Origin: Arboricoccus pini | GTDB taxonomy: Bacteria; Pseudomonadota; Alphaproteobacteria; Geminicoccales; Geminicoccaceae | Direction of reading: 5' to 3' | DNA: 64,000 nucleotides | Assembly (NCBI RefSeq): GCF_900187945.1 | Contig: NZ_FYEH01000005.1 | Coordinates: 1-64,000 of the forward strand | In this document: positions 46,894 through 56,389 of the stretch, one piece after another | Numbering within the stretch: position 1 is the first letter of the stretch | How the letters are laid out: the number at the start of each line of letters is the position of its first letter | Program-made: the position numbers and the translations under genes | Notes under the pieces: generated by a model | Told to the model about the DNA's origin: nothing | Database searches by the model: none | Seen by the model: the letters and a program-made list of their open reading frames with translations, nothing else

Positions 46894-47742
46894 GTGGTGA
46901 AGGATGAGCCTGCTTTTCTCCCGCGCGCGCAGGGCCGGGCCGAGTTGGAGGTCAAGTGGCAAGATGGCCGGACGCGGCTGGCACACGCTTTGGAAGAGGG
47001 TGCTGCCAAGCTGCGTTTTCCGCGTGCCGACGATCCAGCCGGCTTCGAGGCGGTCTGGATCAACAGTGCCGGTGGCCTCACCGACGGTGACCGTCTTACT
47101 CTGCGGGTCAAGGCAGGAGAAAAGGCGCGCCTTCTGCTTACGAGCCAGGCAGCCGAAAAGGTCTACCGGGCACGCCACGGGATGGCGGCGGCACGGCTTG
47201 ACGTCCGTCTGGATGCCGCATTGGGAAGCCATGTCGAATGGCTGCCGCAGGAAACGATCCTGTTCGAGAGTGGCATGCTTGAGCGCAGCTTCGAGGTCGA
47301 CTTGGCACCCGGGGCCACGCTCCTTGCCGCCGAGAGCGTCGTCCTTGGCAGGACGGCACGCGGCGAGGTCGTGGAGCGGGGGCAGTTCGCTGATTCCTGG
47401 ATGATCCGGCGCGAAGGACAGCCGATCTGGGCCGACCGCTTGCGGCTCACTGGAGCGATTGGCGCTCTTGGCCGGCGACCCGCGCTCCTGGATGGTGCGC
47501 GCGCTTTTGCCAGCATCCTTTATGTCGGGGCCGACGCCGAAAGCCGGCAGGAGGCCGTCCGCGAATGGTGCGAAGCCTTGCCGATCCGCGCTGGCTGCTC
47601 GGCGCGTGGCGAGCTTCTTGCTCTGCGTTGCCTAGCTGCCGATGGCGATCAACTGCGCATGGCAATGAGCCTGTTGCTCAGCCGCTTTCGATCTGCTTTG
47701 GCAGGCGCTACCGTGCCCTTGCCCCGTCTCTGGTCCTGTTGA
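46894..47742 (+). CDS. ureD: Urease accessory protein UreD
   Basis: 282 residues from GTG 46894 (GTG 46897 also possible). It shows the conserved NSAGGLTDGDRL, TSQAAEKVYRA, EWLPQETILFE and GRTARGE motifs. UreD binds apo-urease and with UreF and UreG builds the nickel-insertion complex. It is the first gene of ureDABCEFG. Confidence 0.95.
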   Translation: MVKDEPAFLPRAQGRAELEVKWQDGRTRLAHALEEGAAKLRFPRADDPAGFEAVWINSAGGLTDGDRLTLRVKAGEKARLLLTSQAAEKVYRARHGMAAARLDVRLDAALGSHVEWLPQETILFESGMLERSFEVDLAPGATLLAAESVVLGRTARGEVVERGQFADSWMIRREGQPIWADRLRLTGAIGALGRRPALLDGARAFASILYVGADAESRQEAVREWCEALPIRAGCSARGELLALRCLAADGDQLRMAMSLLLSRFRSALAGATVPLPRLWSC

Positions 47743-47760
47743 GAAAGAACGAATCCGGTC

Positions 47761-48063
47761 ATGAATCTGACGCCCCGCGAGAAGGACAAGCTGCTTATCA
47801 GCATGGCGGCCATGGTGGCGCGACGTCGTCTCGAGCGTGGGGTCAAGCTGAACCATCCCGAGGCCGTTGCGCTCATCACCGACTTCGTCGTCGAGGGGGC
47901 GAGGGACGGCCGGTCGGTGGCCGAACTCATGAGCGAGGGCGCGAAGGTGATAAGCCGCGACCAGGTCATGCCAGGGATTGCCGAGATGATCCACGACGTC
48001 CAGGTCGAGGCGACTTTCCCGGACGGCACCAAGCTCGTTACCGTGCACGAACCCATCCGATGA
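47761..48063 (+). CDS. ureA: Urease subunit gamma
   Basis: 100 residues, the standard length: [51 protein letters not shown]. Structural subunit of the (alpha-beta-gamma)3 enzyme. Confidence 0.97.
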
Positions 48064-48076
48064 AAGGGGCATCGTC

Positions 48077-48382
48077 ATGATACCCGGAGAGATTATCACC
48101 ATGCCCGGCGAAATCGAGTTGAACGCCGGACGGCGGACGATAACACTTGCCGTCGCCAATACCGGAGACCGGCCGATCCAGGTGGGCTCGCACTATCATT
48201 TCTTTGAGACGAACGATGCGCTGGCCTTCGATCGCGATCAGGCCAGGGGTATGCGTCTGGCGATCCCCGCCGGCACCGCGGTTCGCTTCGAACCCGGCCA
48301 GCGCCGCGAGGTGGCGCTGGTCGAAATCGGTGGCGCACGCAAGATCTTCGGCTTCAATCAGAAAGTGATGGGCGCCCTCTAG
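48077..48382 (+). CDS. ureB: Urease subunit beta
   Basis: 101 residues: [29 protein letters not shown] and [17 protein letters not shown]. Separate beta and gamma genes, as in most proteobacteria. Confidence 0.97.
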
Positions 48383-48430
48383 GCCAGGCCCTTCTTCCAT
48401 CCCAAGACGTCTTGGCCTCGGAGGCCCCAC

Positions 48431-50137
<1,707 letters not shown>

Positions 50138-50139
50138 CC

Positions 50140-50589
50140 ATGCGACGCGCCACTCACCTGACCGGCGATATCGAGCCCAGTGCCACCGTCACGCTCGACC
50201 ATGGCGCGCGTCATCGCCGCCGGCTTCGCCTGACGACCGACCAGGGAGCAGAGTTTCTTCTCGACCTTCCGGAGGCGCGCGCCCTCCGGGAGGGCGATGT
50301 CCTGGCCCTCGATGACGGAACTGCCGTGCGTGTTCGCGCCGCGCCGGAGGACGTGATCGAGGTGGCGCTGGCCGAGCCGCTCGAACTTGCCCGCATCGCC
50401 TGGCATCTGGGCAATCGCCACACGCCAGTACAGATCCTGCCCGGACGCCTGCGTCTTCATCCCGACCACGTGCTCGAAGCGATGCTTGCCGGATTGGGTC
50501 TGATCTGCGAGCGGCATCGGGCGGCGTTCGACCCCGAGAGCGGTGCCTATGCCACGCATAATCATGGTCGCCACGACCATGACCACTGA
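50140..50589 (+). CDS. ureE: Urease accessory protein UreE
   Basis: 149 residues from ATG 50140. N-domain with LTTDQGAEFLLDLPEA and a C-domain containing WHLGNRHTP and HPDHVLEAML, the nickel dimer site. The His-rich tail [10 protein letters not shown] should bind extra nickel. 11-nt overlap with ureF. Confidence 0.94.
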   Translation: MRRATHLTGDIEPSATVTLDHGARHRRRLRLTTDQGAEFLLDLPEARALREGDVLALDDGTAVRVRAAPEDVIEVALAEPLELARIAWHLGNRHTPVQILPGRLRLHPDHVLEAMLAGLGLICERHRAAFDPESGAYATHNHGRHDHDH

Positions 50590-51268
50590 GGCGGCCGCGG
50601 CCTGGCTCTATCGCCTGATGGCTTGGCTTTCGCCTGCCTATCCGGTCGGCGCCTTCAGCTATAGTCATGGTCTCGAATGGGCGGTGGAGCAACGGCTCGT
50701 TGGCGATCGCTCAAGCCTTGAGGACTGGCTCGATGATGTCCTTCGGCATGGCGGGGGCCGAATTGACGCCATCCTTTGCGCCCATGCTTACGCGGCTGCG
50801 GCGCTAGGTGACCGGCCGACGCTCGTGGGCCTGCGTGATCTTGGCGAAGCGCTGGCTCCGACACGTGAACTGGCTCTGGAGACCCTCTCGCAGGGCGAGG
50901 CGTTTCGTACAACCACGCTCGCGGCCTGGCCGGACCTTGAGCGACTGGCGGAGCTTCTCCCCGACAGGCTGCCGGCCTACCCGATTGCCGTCGGTGCCGC
51001 CGCCGCGGTAGCAGCCATTCCGATGCTGCCGGCGCTCGAAGCCTATCTGCATGCCTTTGTCGCCAATTTGACGTCGGCCGGAGTCCGTCTCATCCCATTG
51101 GGCCAGACCGATGGACAGCGCATCGTTGCCAATCTCGAGCCTGTATGTGTCGAGATGGCCGAGGCGGCCCGTCTCGCACCACTGGACGATCTCGGTACCG
51201 CCACGTTGATGGTCGACTGGTGCTCGATGCGGCATGAAACGCAATATACGAGGCTTTTCAGATCATGA
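50579..51268 (+). CDS. ureF: Urease accessory protein UreF
   Basis: 229 residues from ATG 50579. [20 protein letters not shown] is the UreF signature, with the all-helical remainder. It bridges UreD-urease and UreG and guards GTP hydrolysis. Overlaps ureE by 11 nt and ureG by 4 nt. Confidence 0.94.
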
Positions 51269-51885
51269 ATGCATCGAATGGACCTCTTCGCGTTGGCATT
51301 GGCGGCCCGGTGGGCTCCGGCAAGACCGCCCTTTGCGAGATGCTTTGCAAGGCCATGCGCGACCGCTGGAACATGGCTGTCGTCACCAACGACATTTATA
51401 CCAAGGAAGACCAGCGGCTCCTGACCGTCTCAGGAGCTCTTGATGCCGAGCGGATCGTCGGCGTCGAGACCGGTGGTTGCCCACATACCGCCATCCGTGA
51501 GGATGCCTCGATCAACCTGGCCGCCATTGCCGATCTGAACCGTCGCTTCGAGGGATTGGAACTCCTCTTGATCGAATCGGGCGGCGACAATCTAGCGGCC
51601 ACCTTCAGTCCTGAACTGGCCGATCTTACCATCTACGTGATCGACGTGGCAGGCGGGGAGAAGATCCCGCGGAAAGGTGGCCCAGGTATTACTCGATCGG
51701 ACCTACTCGTGATCAACAAGATCGACCTTGCGCCAATGGTGGGGGCGTCTCTCGACGTCATGGCAGCCGATACGGCGCGCATGCGCAAGGAGCGTCCCTG
51801 GGTCTTCACCAACATCAAGGCGAACCAGGGCGTAGCCGAAGTGGTCGCATTCATCGCCCGTGAAGGCGGGCTGAGGGCTGCCTGA
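51265..51885 (+). CDS. ureG: Urease accessory GTPase UreG
   Basis: 206 residues. P-loop [13 protein letters not shown], nickel-binding motif [13 protein letters not shown], and VINKIDLAP as G4. Last gene of the operon. No nickel or urea transporter genes are present around it. Confidence 0.96.
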
Positions 51886-52689: not shown

Positions 52690-53601
52690 ATGGCTCGGTC
52701 TCTCTATGACAAGCTTGGCGTCGAGCGTAATGCCACGGACGCCGAGATCACCAAGGCATATCGAAAGCTCGCCAAGAAATATCATCCGGACGTTAATCCG
52801 GGCGACAAGAAGGCTGAGGACACGTTCAAGGACGTTACGGCTGCCTACGATATTCTTCTCGATAAGAATAAGCGGGCGCTTTACGATCGCGGCGAGATTG
52901 ATGAGGACGGCCGGGAGCGGGGGTTCGCCGGAGGCGGTTTCAATCCACGTGGCGGCTTCAATGGTGCCGGAGCCGGGCCCGGTGCCGGTATGCGCTTTGA
53001 TTTTTCTCAGGGCGGAGGCGGCTTTGAGGATGTGCTGAACGATTTGTTCGGCAGTGTCGGAGGTGGGCGCGGTGCACGCGGACGGCCGTCGATGGGCGAA
53101 GATATTCGCCTCTCACTCGATCTCGATTTTGTCGACGCCGCGCTTGGCGCGAAGAAGCGCGTCAACTTGCCTGACGGCAGCACACTCGACCTCAATATTC
53201 CAGCGGGTACCGAGACGGGGAACGTGCTGCGCCTACGCGGCAAGGGCCGGTCGGGAGCAGGAGGCGCTGGCGACGCGCTGGTGGAGGTAACGGTTCGCGA
53301 TCATCCGCAGTTCAAGCGCGACGGGCGGGACATTCTCATTGATTGTCCTTTGCCGCTCACCGTGGCCATCGCAGGCGGTAGGCTCAGGGTCCCGACCCTG
53401 ACCGGTCAGGTGAGCCTGAAGGTGGCGCCGGGTACGAGTTCGGGTAAGATCTTGCGTCTGCGTGGCAAAGGCATTCCGGGCGTCAAGGGAAAGCTCGATG
53501 GTGACCAACTCGTCCGGGTGATGGTCGAACTTCCATCGACGATCGACGATCAATTGCGAAACTGGGCCGACGCCCATCAGCCCGCCGAAGCTGCGGATTG
53601 A
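52690..53601 (+). CDS. DnaJ-type co-chaperone, CbpA-like
   Basis: 303 residues: J domain with HPD in KYHPDVNP (about 5-70), a Gly/Phe-rich linker (about 78-110), then two C-terminal substrate domains. The zinc-finger region of DnaJ is absent, so it is the CbpA (type II) class that stimulates DnaK. Its end overlaps the convergent deaminase gene by 25 nt. Confidence 0.93.
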   Translation: MARSLYDKLGVERNATDAEITKAYRKLAKKYHPDVNPGDKKAEDTFKDVTAAYDILLDKNKRALYDRGEIDEDGRERGFAGGGFNPRGGFNGAGAGPGAGMRFDFSQGGGGFEDVLNDLFGSVGGGRGARGRPSMGEDIRLSLDLDFVDAALGAKKRVNLPDGSTLDLNIPAGTETGNVLRLRGKGRSGAGGAGDALVEVTVRDHPQFKRDGRDILIDCPLPLTVAIAGGRLRVPTLTGQVSLKVAPGTSSGKILRLRGKGIPGVKGKLDGDQLVRVMVELPSTIDDQLRNWADAHQPAEAAD

Positions 53602-54896
53602 TCCACCATTCGGGCGAGAGGCTGGTGCATGAATTCGACACGTTCCGGCCGTCCGGCTAGCGATAGACTGGCATGGCGTGGCGGTGTCGAAGCAATGATC
53701 CGACCCTCGCGAATGACCTGAAGGCGAGTTGCCCGCAGACGGATGGCCTCGAAGGGATCAGCGGCCTCAAGCAGCACAAGGTTTGCCTTTGCACCCACCT
53801 GCAGGCCATAGCCCTTCAGTCCCAAGATTTGCGCCGGCGTGGTGGTAACGCTCTCAAAGCAACGACGGATTTCATCCTGGCTCGTCATGTGCAGTGCGTG
53901 AACGGCCATATGTGCCACGTCCAGCATGTCGCCCGATCCCATCGCGTACCAGGGATCCATGCAGCAATCCTGGCCGAACGCTACGGGAATCCCGTGGGCC
54001 TGCATCTCCGGCACGCGTGTTAGACCCCGACGCTTTGGATAGGTGTCCTGCCGTCCCTGGATCGCCATGTTGACCAGTGGATTGCTAATCGCCGCGACAC
54101 CAGCCTCGGCGACGAGTGGCAACAGCTTGGAGACGTAGTAATTGTCCATGCTGTGCATGGATGTAGTATGCGATGCGGTCACCCTGCCTTGCAGCTTGTT
54201 ACGTTCCGCCTCGTAGGCGAGCGTCTCAATATGCCGCGACATGGGATCGTCGCTCTCGTCACAATGAATGTCGACCATCAGCCCACGTTCCGCAGCAATC
54301 TCGACAAGCTGGCGAAGGGAGCGCGCGCCCTCCGCCATCGTTCGCTCGAAATGGGGAATGCCACCCACAACCTCGACGCCCATGTCGAGAGCACGGACAA
54401 GGTTGGCCAAGGCAGTTGGCGAGCGATAGAGCCCGTCTTGTGGGAAAGCCACGAGTTGTAGCTCGAGATAAGGCGCGACACGGCGCTTGACTTCCAAAAG
54501 GGCTTCGACACCGACTAGTCGGTCGTCACAGACGTCGACATGACTGCGAATGGCGCCGACGCCTTGAGCAACAGCGATGTCGCAATAGGCAAGCGCCCGT
54601 TCGACGACCGCCTCTACCTTCAACAGCGGCTTCAGTTCGCTCCAGAGGGCGATCCCTTCGAGCAGTGTGCCCGAGCGATTGAGCCGGGGCAGGCCCAATG
54701 ACAAGGTCGCGTCCATATGAAAGTGGCAGTCGATGAAAGGCGCGGTGACGAGTTTGCCAGCCGCGTCGATCTCGCGTTCGCCATGAGTATCACTCGAAGG
54801 TCGGATCTCGGCGATCCGACCTTCGGCTATGATGATGTCCTGGTTCGTTTGTCCGTCCGGCAACGTGGCCCGGCGAACGACTAGATCGGCGCTCAT
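53577..54896 (-). CDS. Cytosine deaminase-type amidohydrolase, possible 5-methylcytosine deaminase
   Basis: 439 residues, like E. coli CodA across its length with a constant offset of three: H58 and H60, Q153, H211, E214, H243 and D310 match CodA H61, H63, Q156, H214, E217, H246 and D313. The next residue is Cys311 where CodA has Asp314, the residue that excludes 5-methylcytosine; enzymes lacking this Asp deaminate 5-methylcytosine to thymine. So this is likely a 5-methylcytosine or broad pyrimidine deaminase. No cytosine permease gene is adjacent. Confidence 0.85.
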   Translation of the reverse strand: MSADLVVRRATLPDGQTNQDIIIAEGRIAEIRPSSDTHGEREIDAAGKLVTAPFIDCHFHMDATLSLGLPRLNRSGTLLEGIALWSELKPLLKVEAVVERALAYCDIAVAQGVGAIRSHVDVCDDRLVGVEALLEVKRRVAPYLELQLVAFPQDGLYRSPTALANLVRALDMGVEVVGGIPHFERTMAEGARSLRQLVEIAAERGLMVDIHCDESDDPMSRHIETLAYEAERNKLQGRVTASHTTSMHSMDNYYVSKLLPLVAEAGVAAISNPLVNMAIQGRQDTYPKRRGLTRVPEMQAHGIPVAFGQDCCMDPWYAMGSGDMLDVAHMAVHALHMTSQDEIRRCFESVTTTPAQILGLKGYGLQVGAKANLVLLEAADPFEAIRLRATRLQVIREGRIIASTPPRHASLSLAGRPERVEFMHQPLARMVDQSAASAG

Positions 54897-55028
54897 TCTC
54901 TCTCCTGGTCCCGCAAGCGACTTCCATCAGCCTTCAAGGCTTGAACGGCCGCCATCCTCTAGCAGGAGCGCAGGATGCGAGACCGAAGTCGAGCCTTCAA
55001 GCTAGATGGCAAGTCTCCAGCCGCAGGG

Positions 55029-55199
55029 TCAGACGCTTCGGCCGCGCGCCACGTGCATGATCAAGCCGATCAGGAAAAGTACGATGAAGACGATGAAAAT
55101 GATCTTGGCGATCTGCGCTGCTCCGGCGGCAATGCCTCCAAATCCGAGCACGCCCGCGATGAGCGCAATGACGAGGAAGATGAGAGCCCATCGAAGCAT
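55029..55199 (-). CDS. DUF1328 small membrane protein
   Basis: 56 residues starting at ATG 55199, behind AGAAGGA. The sequence [20 protein letters not shown] then [19 protein letters not shown] is the DUF1328 (YtjA/UPF0391) pattern of two helices. The family is stress-linked in several bacteria but has no proven role. A branched inverted-repeat element lies in its leader. Confidence 0.85.
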
Positions 55200-55245
55200 G
55201 TTTTCGATCCTTCTTCTTTAGCGGCGATACCAGACGTCGTGGGAT

Positions 55246-55328
55246 AGCTTGGCCGAGAACGAATGCCTGCCAGGACGGTTCCGTCCAACATCGCTCATCG
55301 AGACCTTCAGGCAGTATCAGGCCAAGCT
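55246..55328 (-). ncRNA. Branched inverted-repeat element (candidate structured RNA)
   Basis: An 83-nt block of nested inverted repeats. P1: AGCTTGGCC (55246-55254) with GGCCAAGCT (55320-55328), 9 bp. P2: TGCCTG (55264-55269) with CAGGCA (55308-55313), 6 bp. P3: GGACG (55273-55277) with CGTCC (55282-55286). P4: CTC/GAG (55294-55302). It starts 8 nt after the aminomutase-like gene ends and stops 47 nt before the DUF1328 start, so it may be a leader of the small gene or a 3' structure. No U-run follows. Confidence 0.5.
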
Positions 55329-55336
55329 TGTAATGC

Positions 55337-56389
55337 CTATTGATCGCTGACGTCATCAGGATAGAAATGCCGTCGTCCTTCGAAATCCTCGATTGTGTAG
55401 CCACCCTCCTCAGGATCGGCGTAGGCTGGCTGAAGCGGCGATTTCCCGTAGCCGCCCGGGATGTCGAGGACGTAGGCAGGTTGACAAAGGCCCGACCAGC
55501 GGCCGCGCAGTGCCTTCACGATCGATTGTCCCGCGGCAACGCTTGAGCGAAAATGGCCGGTCCCAGGCGCCAGATCCAGGTGATGCAGATAATAGGGCTT
55601 GATGCGCGCCTCCACGAGCGCGCGCATCAGATCGCCCAATACTGCCGGGCTGTCATTGACGCCCTTGAGCAGCACGGACTGGCTGAGCATAGGAATGCCC
55701 GCGTCTACGAGCCGAGCAATGGCTTCCTTGCCGAGGGATGTGAGCTCTCGGGCATGATTAACATGCAGGACCACCCAACTGGTCAGTTCATCGGCTCGTA
55801 AGGAGCGGACTAGATCAGGCGTGATTCTGCCGGGATCGACCAGTGGAATCCGCGTGTGGAAGCGCACGATGCGCACATGCGGGATTGCCGACAGCCTCTC
55901 GGTCAGGGCGGCGAGGCGGCGACTCGATGCGATCAGCGGATCGCCACCAGTAACGACGACCTCCCAGATATGATCGTCGTCGGCGATATAGCCCAGCGCT
56001 CGGTCCAAGGCCTGGTCATCCATCACATGCGGCTGCCCTGGCCCGACGACCTCGCGCCTGAAGCAGAACCGGCAATAGACGGCGCAGACCTGGACGAGCT
56101 TAAGGAGAACCCGGTCGGGATAGCGATGAACGATGCCCGGCACCTTCTCGTGCACATTGTCGCCGATCGGATCCGGGCTCTCATTCGGCCGATTGGTGAG
56201 TTCTTCCAGGCGCGGCACAAATTGCCGCCCGATCGGATCGTTCGGCTGCTCGATCGCTTCGGCCATGAGCGGCGTTATGGCGACCGCGTAGCGGGCGGCG
56301 ACCGCCGCCAGTTCCTCACTTTGACTAGGAGAAGCGAGACCGACATGCTCAAGGTCGGCGGGACTGCGGATCGTCGATTTTGTTCCCAT
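55337..56389 (-). CDS. Lysine-2,3-aminomutase-like radical SAM protein (EpmB-like)
   Basis: 350 residues. Radical SAM cysteines C102, C106 and C109 (CAVYCRFC), TGGDPL for SAM, and the PLP lysine in GGYGKSPL. In bacteria with elongation factor P modification, EpmB turns lysine into beta-lysine for EF-P, but efp and epmA are not next to it. True lysine 2,3-aminomutase activity is the alternative. Confidence 0.85.
   Translation of the reverse strand: MGTKSTIRSPADLEHVGLASPSQSEELAAVAARYAVAITPLMAEAIEQPNDPIGRQFVPRLEELTNRPNESPDPIGDNVHEKVPGIVHRYPDRVLLKLVQVCAVYCRFCFRREVVGPGQPHVMDDQALDRALGYIADDDHIWEVVVTGGDPLIASSRRLAALTERLSAIPHVRIVRFHTRIPLVDPGRITPDLVRSLRADELTSWVVLHVNHARELTSLGKEAIARLVDAGIPMLSQSVLLKGVNDSPAVLGDLMRALVEARIKPYYLHHLDLAPGTGHFRSSVAAGQSIVKALRGRWSGLCQPAYVLDIPGGYGKSPLQPAYADPEEGGYTIEDFEGRRHFYPDDVSDQ

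Follow-up and report, generated by a model that had tools for sequence, protein, structure and literature searches.

A CodA-type nucleobase deaminase of Arboricoccus pini with a cysteine at the 5-methylcytosine discriminating position, a replacement shared by its nearer relatives

The stretch of the Arboricoccus pini genome analysed here (64,000 nucleotides, contig NZ_FYEH01000005.1, positions 1 to 64,000; in the following the window) carries a homologue of the cytosine deaminase CodA in which the residue discriminating against 5-methylcytosine is replaced by a cysteine. This raises the question whether the enzyme serves to salvage methylated bases from DNA, as proposed in an earlier note on this sequence, or whether it is a more ordinary scavenger of nucleobases.

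The gene is an intact open reading frame running from ATG to stop, with the position and strand that had been reported before. The features relevant to the analysis are the following.

53577-54896, minus strand: CodA-type nucleobase deaminase of the Cys-314 clade, 439 aa (PRK07572 cut-off exceeded, alignment, tree)
54902-54906, minus strand: AGGAG, resembling a ribosome-binding site, 5 nt before the ATG (sequence read)
54717-54725, minus strand: His58 and His60, corresponding to the metal ligands His61 and His63 of CodA (alignment)
54438-54440, minus strand: Gln153, corresponding to CodA Gln156, the glutamine marking the CodA cluster (alignment)
54255-54266, minus strand: His211 and Glu214, corresponding to CodA His214 and Glu217 (alignment)
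54168-54170, minus strand: His243, corresponding to CodA His246 (alignment)
53970-53972, minus strand: Gln309, corresponding to CodA His312; Kpn00632 also has Gln (alignment)
53967-53969, minus strand: Asp310, corresponding to CodA Asp313, the catalytic and metal-binding Asp (alignment)
53964-53966, minus strand: codon TGC of Cys311, corresponding to CodA Asp314, the 5-methylcytosine discriminating position (alignment and codon read)

The alignment with E. coli CodA (1k6w) covered residues 9-422 at 42% identity and bore out the claim that the catalytic residues of CodA are conserved, shifted by a constant three positions. His61, His63, Phe154, Gln156, His214, Glu217, His246, Asp313 and Trp319 of CodA correspond to His58, His60, Phe151, Gln153, His211, Glu214, His243, Asp310 and Trp316 of the window protein (offset -3). 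These include the residues characteristic of the CodA cluster (amidohydrolase subtype III), namely His61, His63, His214, Glu217, His246 and Asp313 in CodA numbering, which are invariant in all 108 fetched homologues. According to the available text of PMC12828455 the cluster is further recognised by a glutamine after beta-strand 3 (CodA Gln156), which the window protein possesses as Gln153. In the same alignment CodA Asp314 is matched by Cys311, again in agreement with the earlier note down to the codon, and CodA His312 is matched by Gln309. Homologues are referred to as Cys, Ser or Asp types below according to their residue at CodA position 314. The window protein contains a second cysteine, Cys312 (CodA Val315), which is rare, being present in three of the 38 Cys-type rows of the phylum survey described below and in none of 108 other rows.

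A scan of positions 53400-55500 of the window for promoters and terminators found none. The 3' ends of the deaminase gene and of a convergent DnaJ-like ORF (52690-53601, plus strand) overlap by 25 bases (53577-53601). Upstream of the deaminase gene, on the same strand, lies an ORF for a hydrophobic protein of 56 aa (55029-55199, minus strand), which presumably resembles the DUF1328 small membrane proteins.

Profile searches matched the deaminase to Amidohydro_3 in Pfam and to the NCBIfam model PRK07572 (“cytosine deaminase”), the cut-off of which (438 bits) was exceeded with 748 bits; no difference defining the protein against this subfamily was found. Its score to the CodA model PRK09230 was below the cut-off (426.3 versus 483 bits), and with Cys311 in place of the aspartate it is not CodA proper. 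Another Cys-type protein (P0002) scored 725 bits to PRK07572. Since the cut-off of PRK07572 was also passed by four of the six Ser or Asp types tested, five of the six scoring higher to PRK09230, the model is not exclusive to the Cys type and its name tells little about the substrate.

A Foldseek search with the predicted structure (pLDDT 79.1, pTM 0.84) returned the Klebsiella 5-methylcytosine deaminase 4r7w as top PDB match (E 2.4e-37), level with CodA entries, and the matches included the CodA variants D314A, D314G and D314S. The predicted fold fits the Klebsiella enzyme as well as it fits CodA. Since the pLDDT lies under 50 at residues 274-291 and 313-321, beside Cys311, the pocket is unreadable in the model, which therefore neither supports nor refutes room at C5 of the substrate.

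The window protein shares with E. coli CodA (1k6w, PRK09230) the fold, the metal-binding and catalytic residues, Gln156 and Trp319, but differs from it by Cys instead of Asp314, Gln instead of His312, Cys instead of Val315 and Met instead of Phe316. In the accessible text of PMC6186785 the aspartate of CodA, numbered 315 there, is described as barring 5-methylcytosine; its change to Ala gives activity, and the Klebsiella enzyme has Ser. The latter enzyme, Kpn00632 of Klebsiella pneumoniae (4r7w/4r85/4r88), resembles the window protein in lacking Asp314, in having Gln at position 312 and in its fold, the alignment showing Gln-Asp-Ser in 4r7w versus His-Asp-Asp in CodA. Whereas both proteins have a small residue instead of Asp314, the window protein has Cys311 where Kpn00632 has Ser, and it does not belong to the Kpn00632-like group. 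Kpn00632 goes with the Ser group, whose genes often adjoin CodB, outside the Cys group; 4r7w itself is not in the tree, and for the Ser-type L227 the score is 656 bits to 4r7w compared to 533 bits to the best CodA entry. The N-isopropylammelide hydrolases AtzC and 6nbo belong to the CodA cluster and have the same fold but are only 26-28% identical to the window protein (137 bits or less versus about 347 bits to CodA). Rsp0341 of R. sphaeroides is said to be a 5-methylcytosine deaminase tested by Hitchcock and colleagues in 2014. The literature searched contained no measured activity of an enzyme assignable to the Cys type, and PMC13054789, PMC11898903 and PMC13207237 yielded nothing decisive either.

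The distribution of the residue at position 314 was read from a survey of the phylum covering 299 genomes, 74 of which gave a match with an E-value of at most 1e-60, with one match listed per genome and at most five candidates scored each; one of these is the own genome and the other 73 were all read. All 38 homologues with at least 55% identity to the window protein have Cys at this position, and the 35 homologues below 55% have either Asp as in CodA (17) or Ser as in Kpn00632 (18). In 60 related genomes, which are not independent of each other, Cys was found in all 18 homologues with at least 60% identity and Ser in three homologues at about 44%. Another set, which may share species with the phylum survey, comprises 108 loci taken from plasmids, relatives and named genomes, 106 of them Cys and two Ser types. 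Because 80 of these loci (the named loci) are the best 80 of at least 592 and were selected for their resemblance to a Cys-type query, the count is biased towards Cys and the phylum survey represents the fairer draw. At position 312 the Asp types of the survey all have His, the Ser types Gln or Glu and the Cys types His or Gln; outside the survey this pattern fails, as His is found in the Ser types L028-L030 and Ser in two Cys types.

All 78 Cys rows cluster together (SH-aLRT 100) in a tree built from 120 rows, and the Cys type occurs across many families; this quick tree is midpoint-rooted, has long branches (L229, L232, outgroups) and leaves 37 of its 117 inner branches open. The window protein is located in a set of 14 rows of its own family (SH-aLRT 97); of the 15 further Cys rows belonging to this family, 13 are in the set. 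Ser and Asp need two changes each on the tree, so that a small residue at position 314 may have arisen, or may have been kept, more than once. Judged from these sequence comparisons, the replacement of Asp314 by Cys is more than chance and is not peculiar to the gene in the window. Two relatives from the same family as the window protein, L065 and L066, are Ser types of about 44% identity with His at position 312; they belong neither to the Kpn00632-like Ser group nor to the Cys group, and importer and CodB are absent within the flank examined.

Unlike E. coli CodA, the Cys-type relatives are linked to BMP importers and not to CodB. In the survey a complete BMP-ATPase-permease-permease set was detected in 18 of the 38 Cys loci, in none of the 18 Ser loci (one with permease matches only) and in none of the 17 Asp loci, these counts depending on the flank length fetched and on gene calls that are simple ORF picks. 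A CodB-like permease (PF02133) adjoins none of the 38 Cys, 14 of the 18 Ser and nine of the 17 Asp loci, with the same dependence and with CodB sought by a single query at 30% identity and 40% coverage, which could miss a divergent permease. The complete importer is present in 49 and some part of it in 54 of the 80 named loci, compared to five and eight, respectively, of the 18 loci from relatives; no importer gene at all was found within the flank examined in 18 of the 38 survey Cys loci and 26 of the 80 named loci. Among the first eight plasmid loci, six have a BMP-family ABC importer next to the Cys-type gene and two (L044, L045) lack it. In many loci the deaminase gene starts directly at the end of the importer genes, and in annotated records the deaminase is the last gene of the importer operon, with one exception in which it is the first; some of these operons include an amidase. 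A search for sigma-54 sites before 73 BMP genes gave no clear signal, with three hits at up to two mismatches (4%; random stretches 1.5%) and seven at up to three (10%; random 12%). An amidase gene occurs in or beside the Cys-type neighbourhoods of L040, L041, L043, L192, L193, L195, L250, L251 and L270, and the substrate of this recurring enzyme may hint at what the Cys-type operon handles.

A smaller number of neighbourhoods contain genes acting on uracil. The uracil phosphoribosyltransferase gene upp was detected near four of the 38 survey Cys loci and one of the 17 Asp loci, URC genes near one of the 38 Cys loci, and neither of them in any of the 80 named loci. URC1-URC4-upp are found in the Cys-type neighbourhoods of Azospirillum TSH58 (L042), C. 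metallidurans CH34 (L044) and L238, and upp alone within about 6 kb of the Cys-type gene in L063, L237, L241 and L245. The URC pathway, described for a yeast, leads from uracil to 3-hydroxypropionate and urea (PMC7530994, in the text available). As these neighbours constitute a route starting from uracil, they support the conversion of cytosine to uracil as one real use of the enzyme.

Alternatively, the Cys clade may act mainly on another base delivered by the BMP-type importer, such as isoguanine, which is also taken by CodA, another purine or a modified base. Such a substrate appears possible because the URC and upp neighbours are few and the BMP binding protein of the Cys-type loci is a distant relative of purine binders. 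Its nearest solved structures are 3s99 and AtzT, which bind purines according to the available text of PMC6834077, AtzT binding cytosine only at 800 uM. The presence of the importer in 18 of the 38 loci together with the lack of CodB-like permeases points in the same direction, as do CodA-cluster enzymes which were annotated as cytosine deaminases and turned out to have other scopes (PMC12828455, in the text available). Taking into account, however, that URC and upp genes do occur in some loci, that the match of the binding protein is distant (119 bits) and that the catalytic residues follow CodA, we consider this alternative unlikely, if worth keeping in mind.

In the window itself the queries for importer, URC, upp and amidase gave no match anywhere, and the deaminase gene stands alone. 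A urease gene cluster (46894-51885, plus strand) lies about 1.7 kb from it. A link with this upstream cluster was considered and rejected: 181 fetched loci were searched for seven neighbours in the window, which we take to be UreC, UreG, Hsp20, DnaJ, EpmB and a glutathione-reductase-like and a DAHP-synthase-like protein, and the sole match was one of 27% to the reductase-like protein in L141. As the flanks examined were short, the result means no more than that this arrangement is not repeated in the immediate neighbourhood of the deaminase.

The own genome (99.32% complete) gave no match to the C5-cytosine methyltransferase family PF00145, the query for which matches ten of 14 control genomes, so that the cell would have to obtain 5-methylcytosine, as a DNA base, from external sources. 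Likewise, there was no match to the thymidine kinase family PF00265 (matched in eight of 14 control genomes) or to PF02133 permeases, and families outside those searched, such as other thymidine kinases or uracil/xanthine permeases, could fill these gaps. The genome does encode upp. One locus comprises RutA (602 bits, cut-off 498), PreA (700 bits, cut-off 335), a carbamoylase-family amidase and a RutR-like regulator, which with 177 bits is under the RutR cut-off of 368; a dihydropyrimidinase (591 bits, cut-off 393) is encoded elsewhere. Based on upp and the RutA/PreA locus, and on the lack of PF00265 matches, uracil could be salvaged or degraded, whereas thymine would probably only be degraded. 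Uracil catabolism by the URC pathway was rejected for the own genome, which has no match to PF07958 (URC4).

A BMP importer on contig 27 of the own genome was rejected as partner of the deaminase. It adjoins a PF00591 gene and a gene for an apparent fusion of 404 aa (L156:7434-8645, minus strand) composed of a cytidine deaminase (residues 2-125) and a purine-nucleoside phosphorylase (133-394), and it reads as a nucleoside system because the best scores of its binding protein are those to Lbp (7x0r) and tmpC, not to 3s99 or AtzT. A second BMP gene is located on contig 23.

With regard to substrates and direction of use we infer, with moderate confidence, that the window gene encodes a relaxed deaminase of the CodA cluster which converts scavenged cytosine to uracil and ammonia, and probably also 5-methylcytosine to thymine, the products entering salvage or breakdown. 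5-Methylcytosine is probably tolerated because the small Cys311 replaces Asp314 beside the C5 edge of the substrate. By analogy to the CodA cluster as presented in the available text of PMC12828455, a metal-bound water activated by Asp310 and His243 would attack the base, Gln153 would stabilise the intermediate and Glu214 would move the proton, while Cys311 would leave room at C5. The products could then be directed to salvage by uracil phosphoribosyltransferase or to breakdown by RutA/PreA and serve as a source of nitrogen and pyrimidines.

Compared to this relaxed deaminase, an ordinary cytosine deaminase whose pocket still excludes 5-methylcytosine, owing to Cys311 or to further changes, seems rather improbable. 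It would be consistent with the fact that the CodA variants listed carry Ala, Gly or Ser at position 314 and Kpn00632 carries Ser, none of them Cys, but Cys is smaller than Asp and uncharged, and the loss of the aspartate is the determinant stated in the available text of PMC6186785. Despite the loss of Asp314 and the precedent of the Klebsiella enzyme, which lacks this residue and is a solved 5-methylcytosine deaminase, we hold it to be very doubtful that the protein is a dedicated recycler of methylated DNA bases, with 5-methylcytosine as main substrate and reuse of the thymine, since the own genome lacks PF00145 and PF00265, Cys types occur in many different families and those few neighbours that are informative act on uracil.

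What stands of the earlier proposal is a CodA-type deaminase without the discriminating aspartate, as supported by the residues and by the role ascribed to this aspartate in the available text of PMC6186785. A special role in the salvage of methylated DNA is doubtful, because all 38 homologues with at least 55% identity share the Cys and what few neighbours are informative suggest that bases are taken up and uracil is used, and salvage of methylated bases from the own DNA finds no support, given the lack of PF00145 and PF00265 matches. As the nearer relatives share the Cys, an enzyme scavenging bases in the ordinary way is likelier than a gene specialised in the salvage of methylated DNA.

This gene is one among many, and what is useful is the pattern in which it stands. 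The family falls into Asp, Ser and Cys types by the residue deciding on 5-methylcytosine, the Cys type has a different transport partner from the other two, and Cys at position 314 should not be taken as evidence of methylated-DNA salvage. More speculatively, and in our view improbably, the Cys-314 clade may represent a third functional class of CodA-type enzymes, common in the phylum and acting on C5-substituted or modified bases taken up by its own BMP-type ABC importer, with CodB and cytosine specificity belonging to the other two classes. If true, this third class would constitute a widespread and so far unrecognised way of consuming the modified nucleobases of decaying DNA and RNA. From the pattern a small number of enzymes and binding proteins can be singled out that bear on the fate of free 5-methylcytosine.
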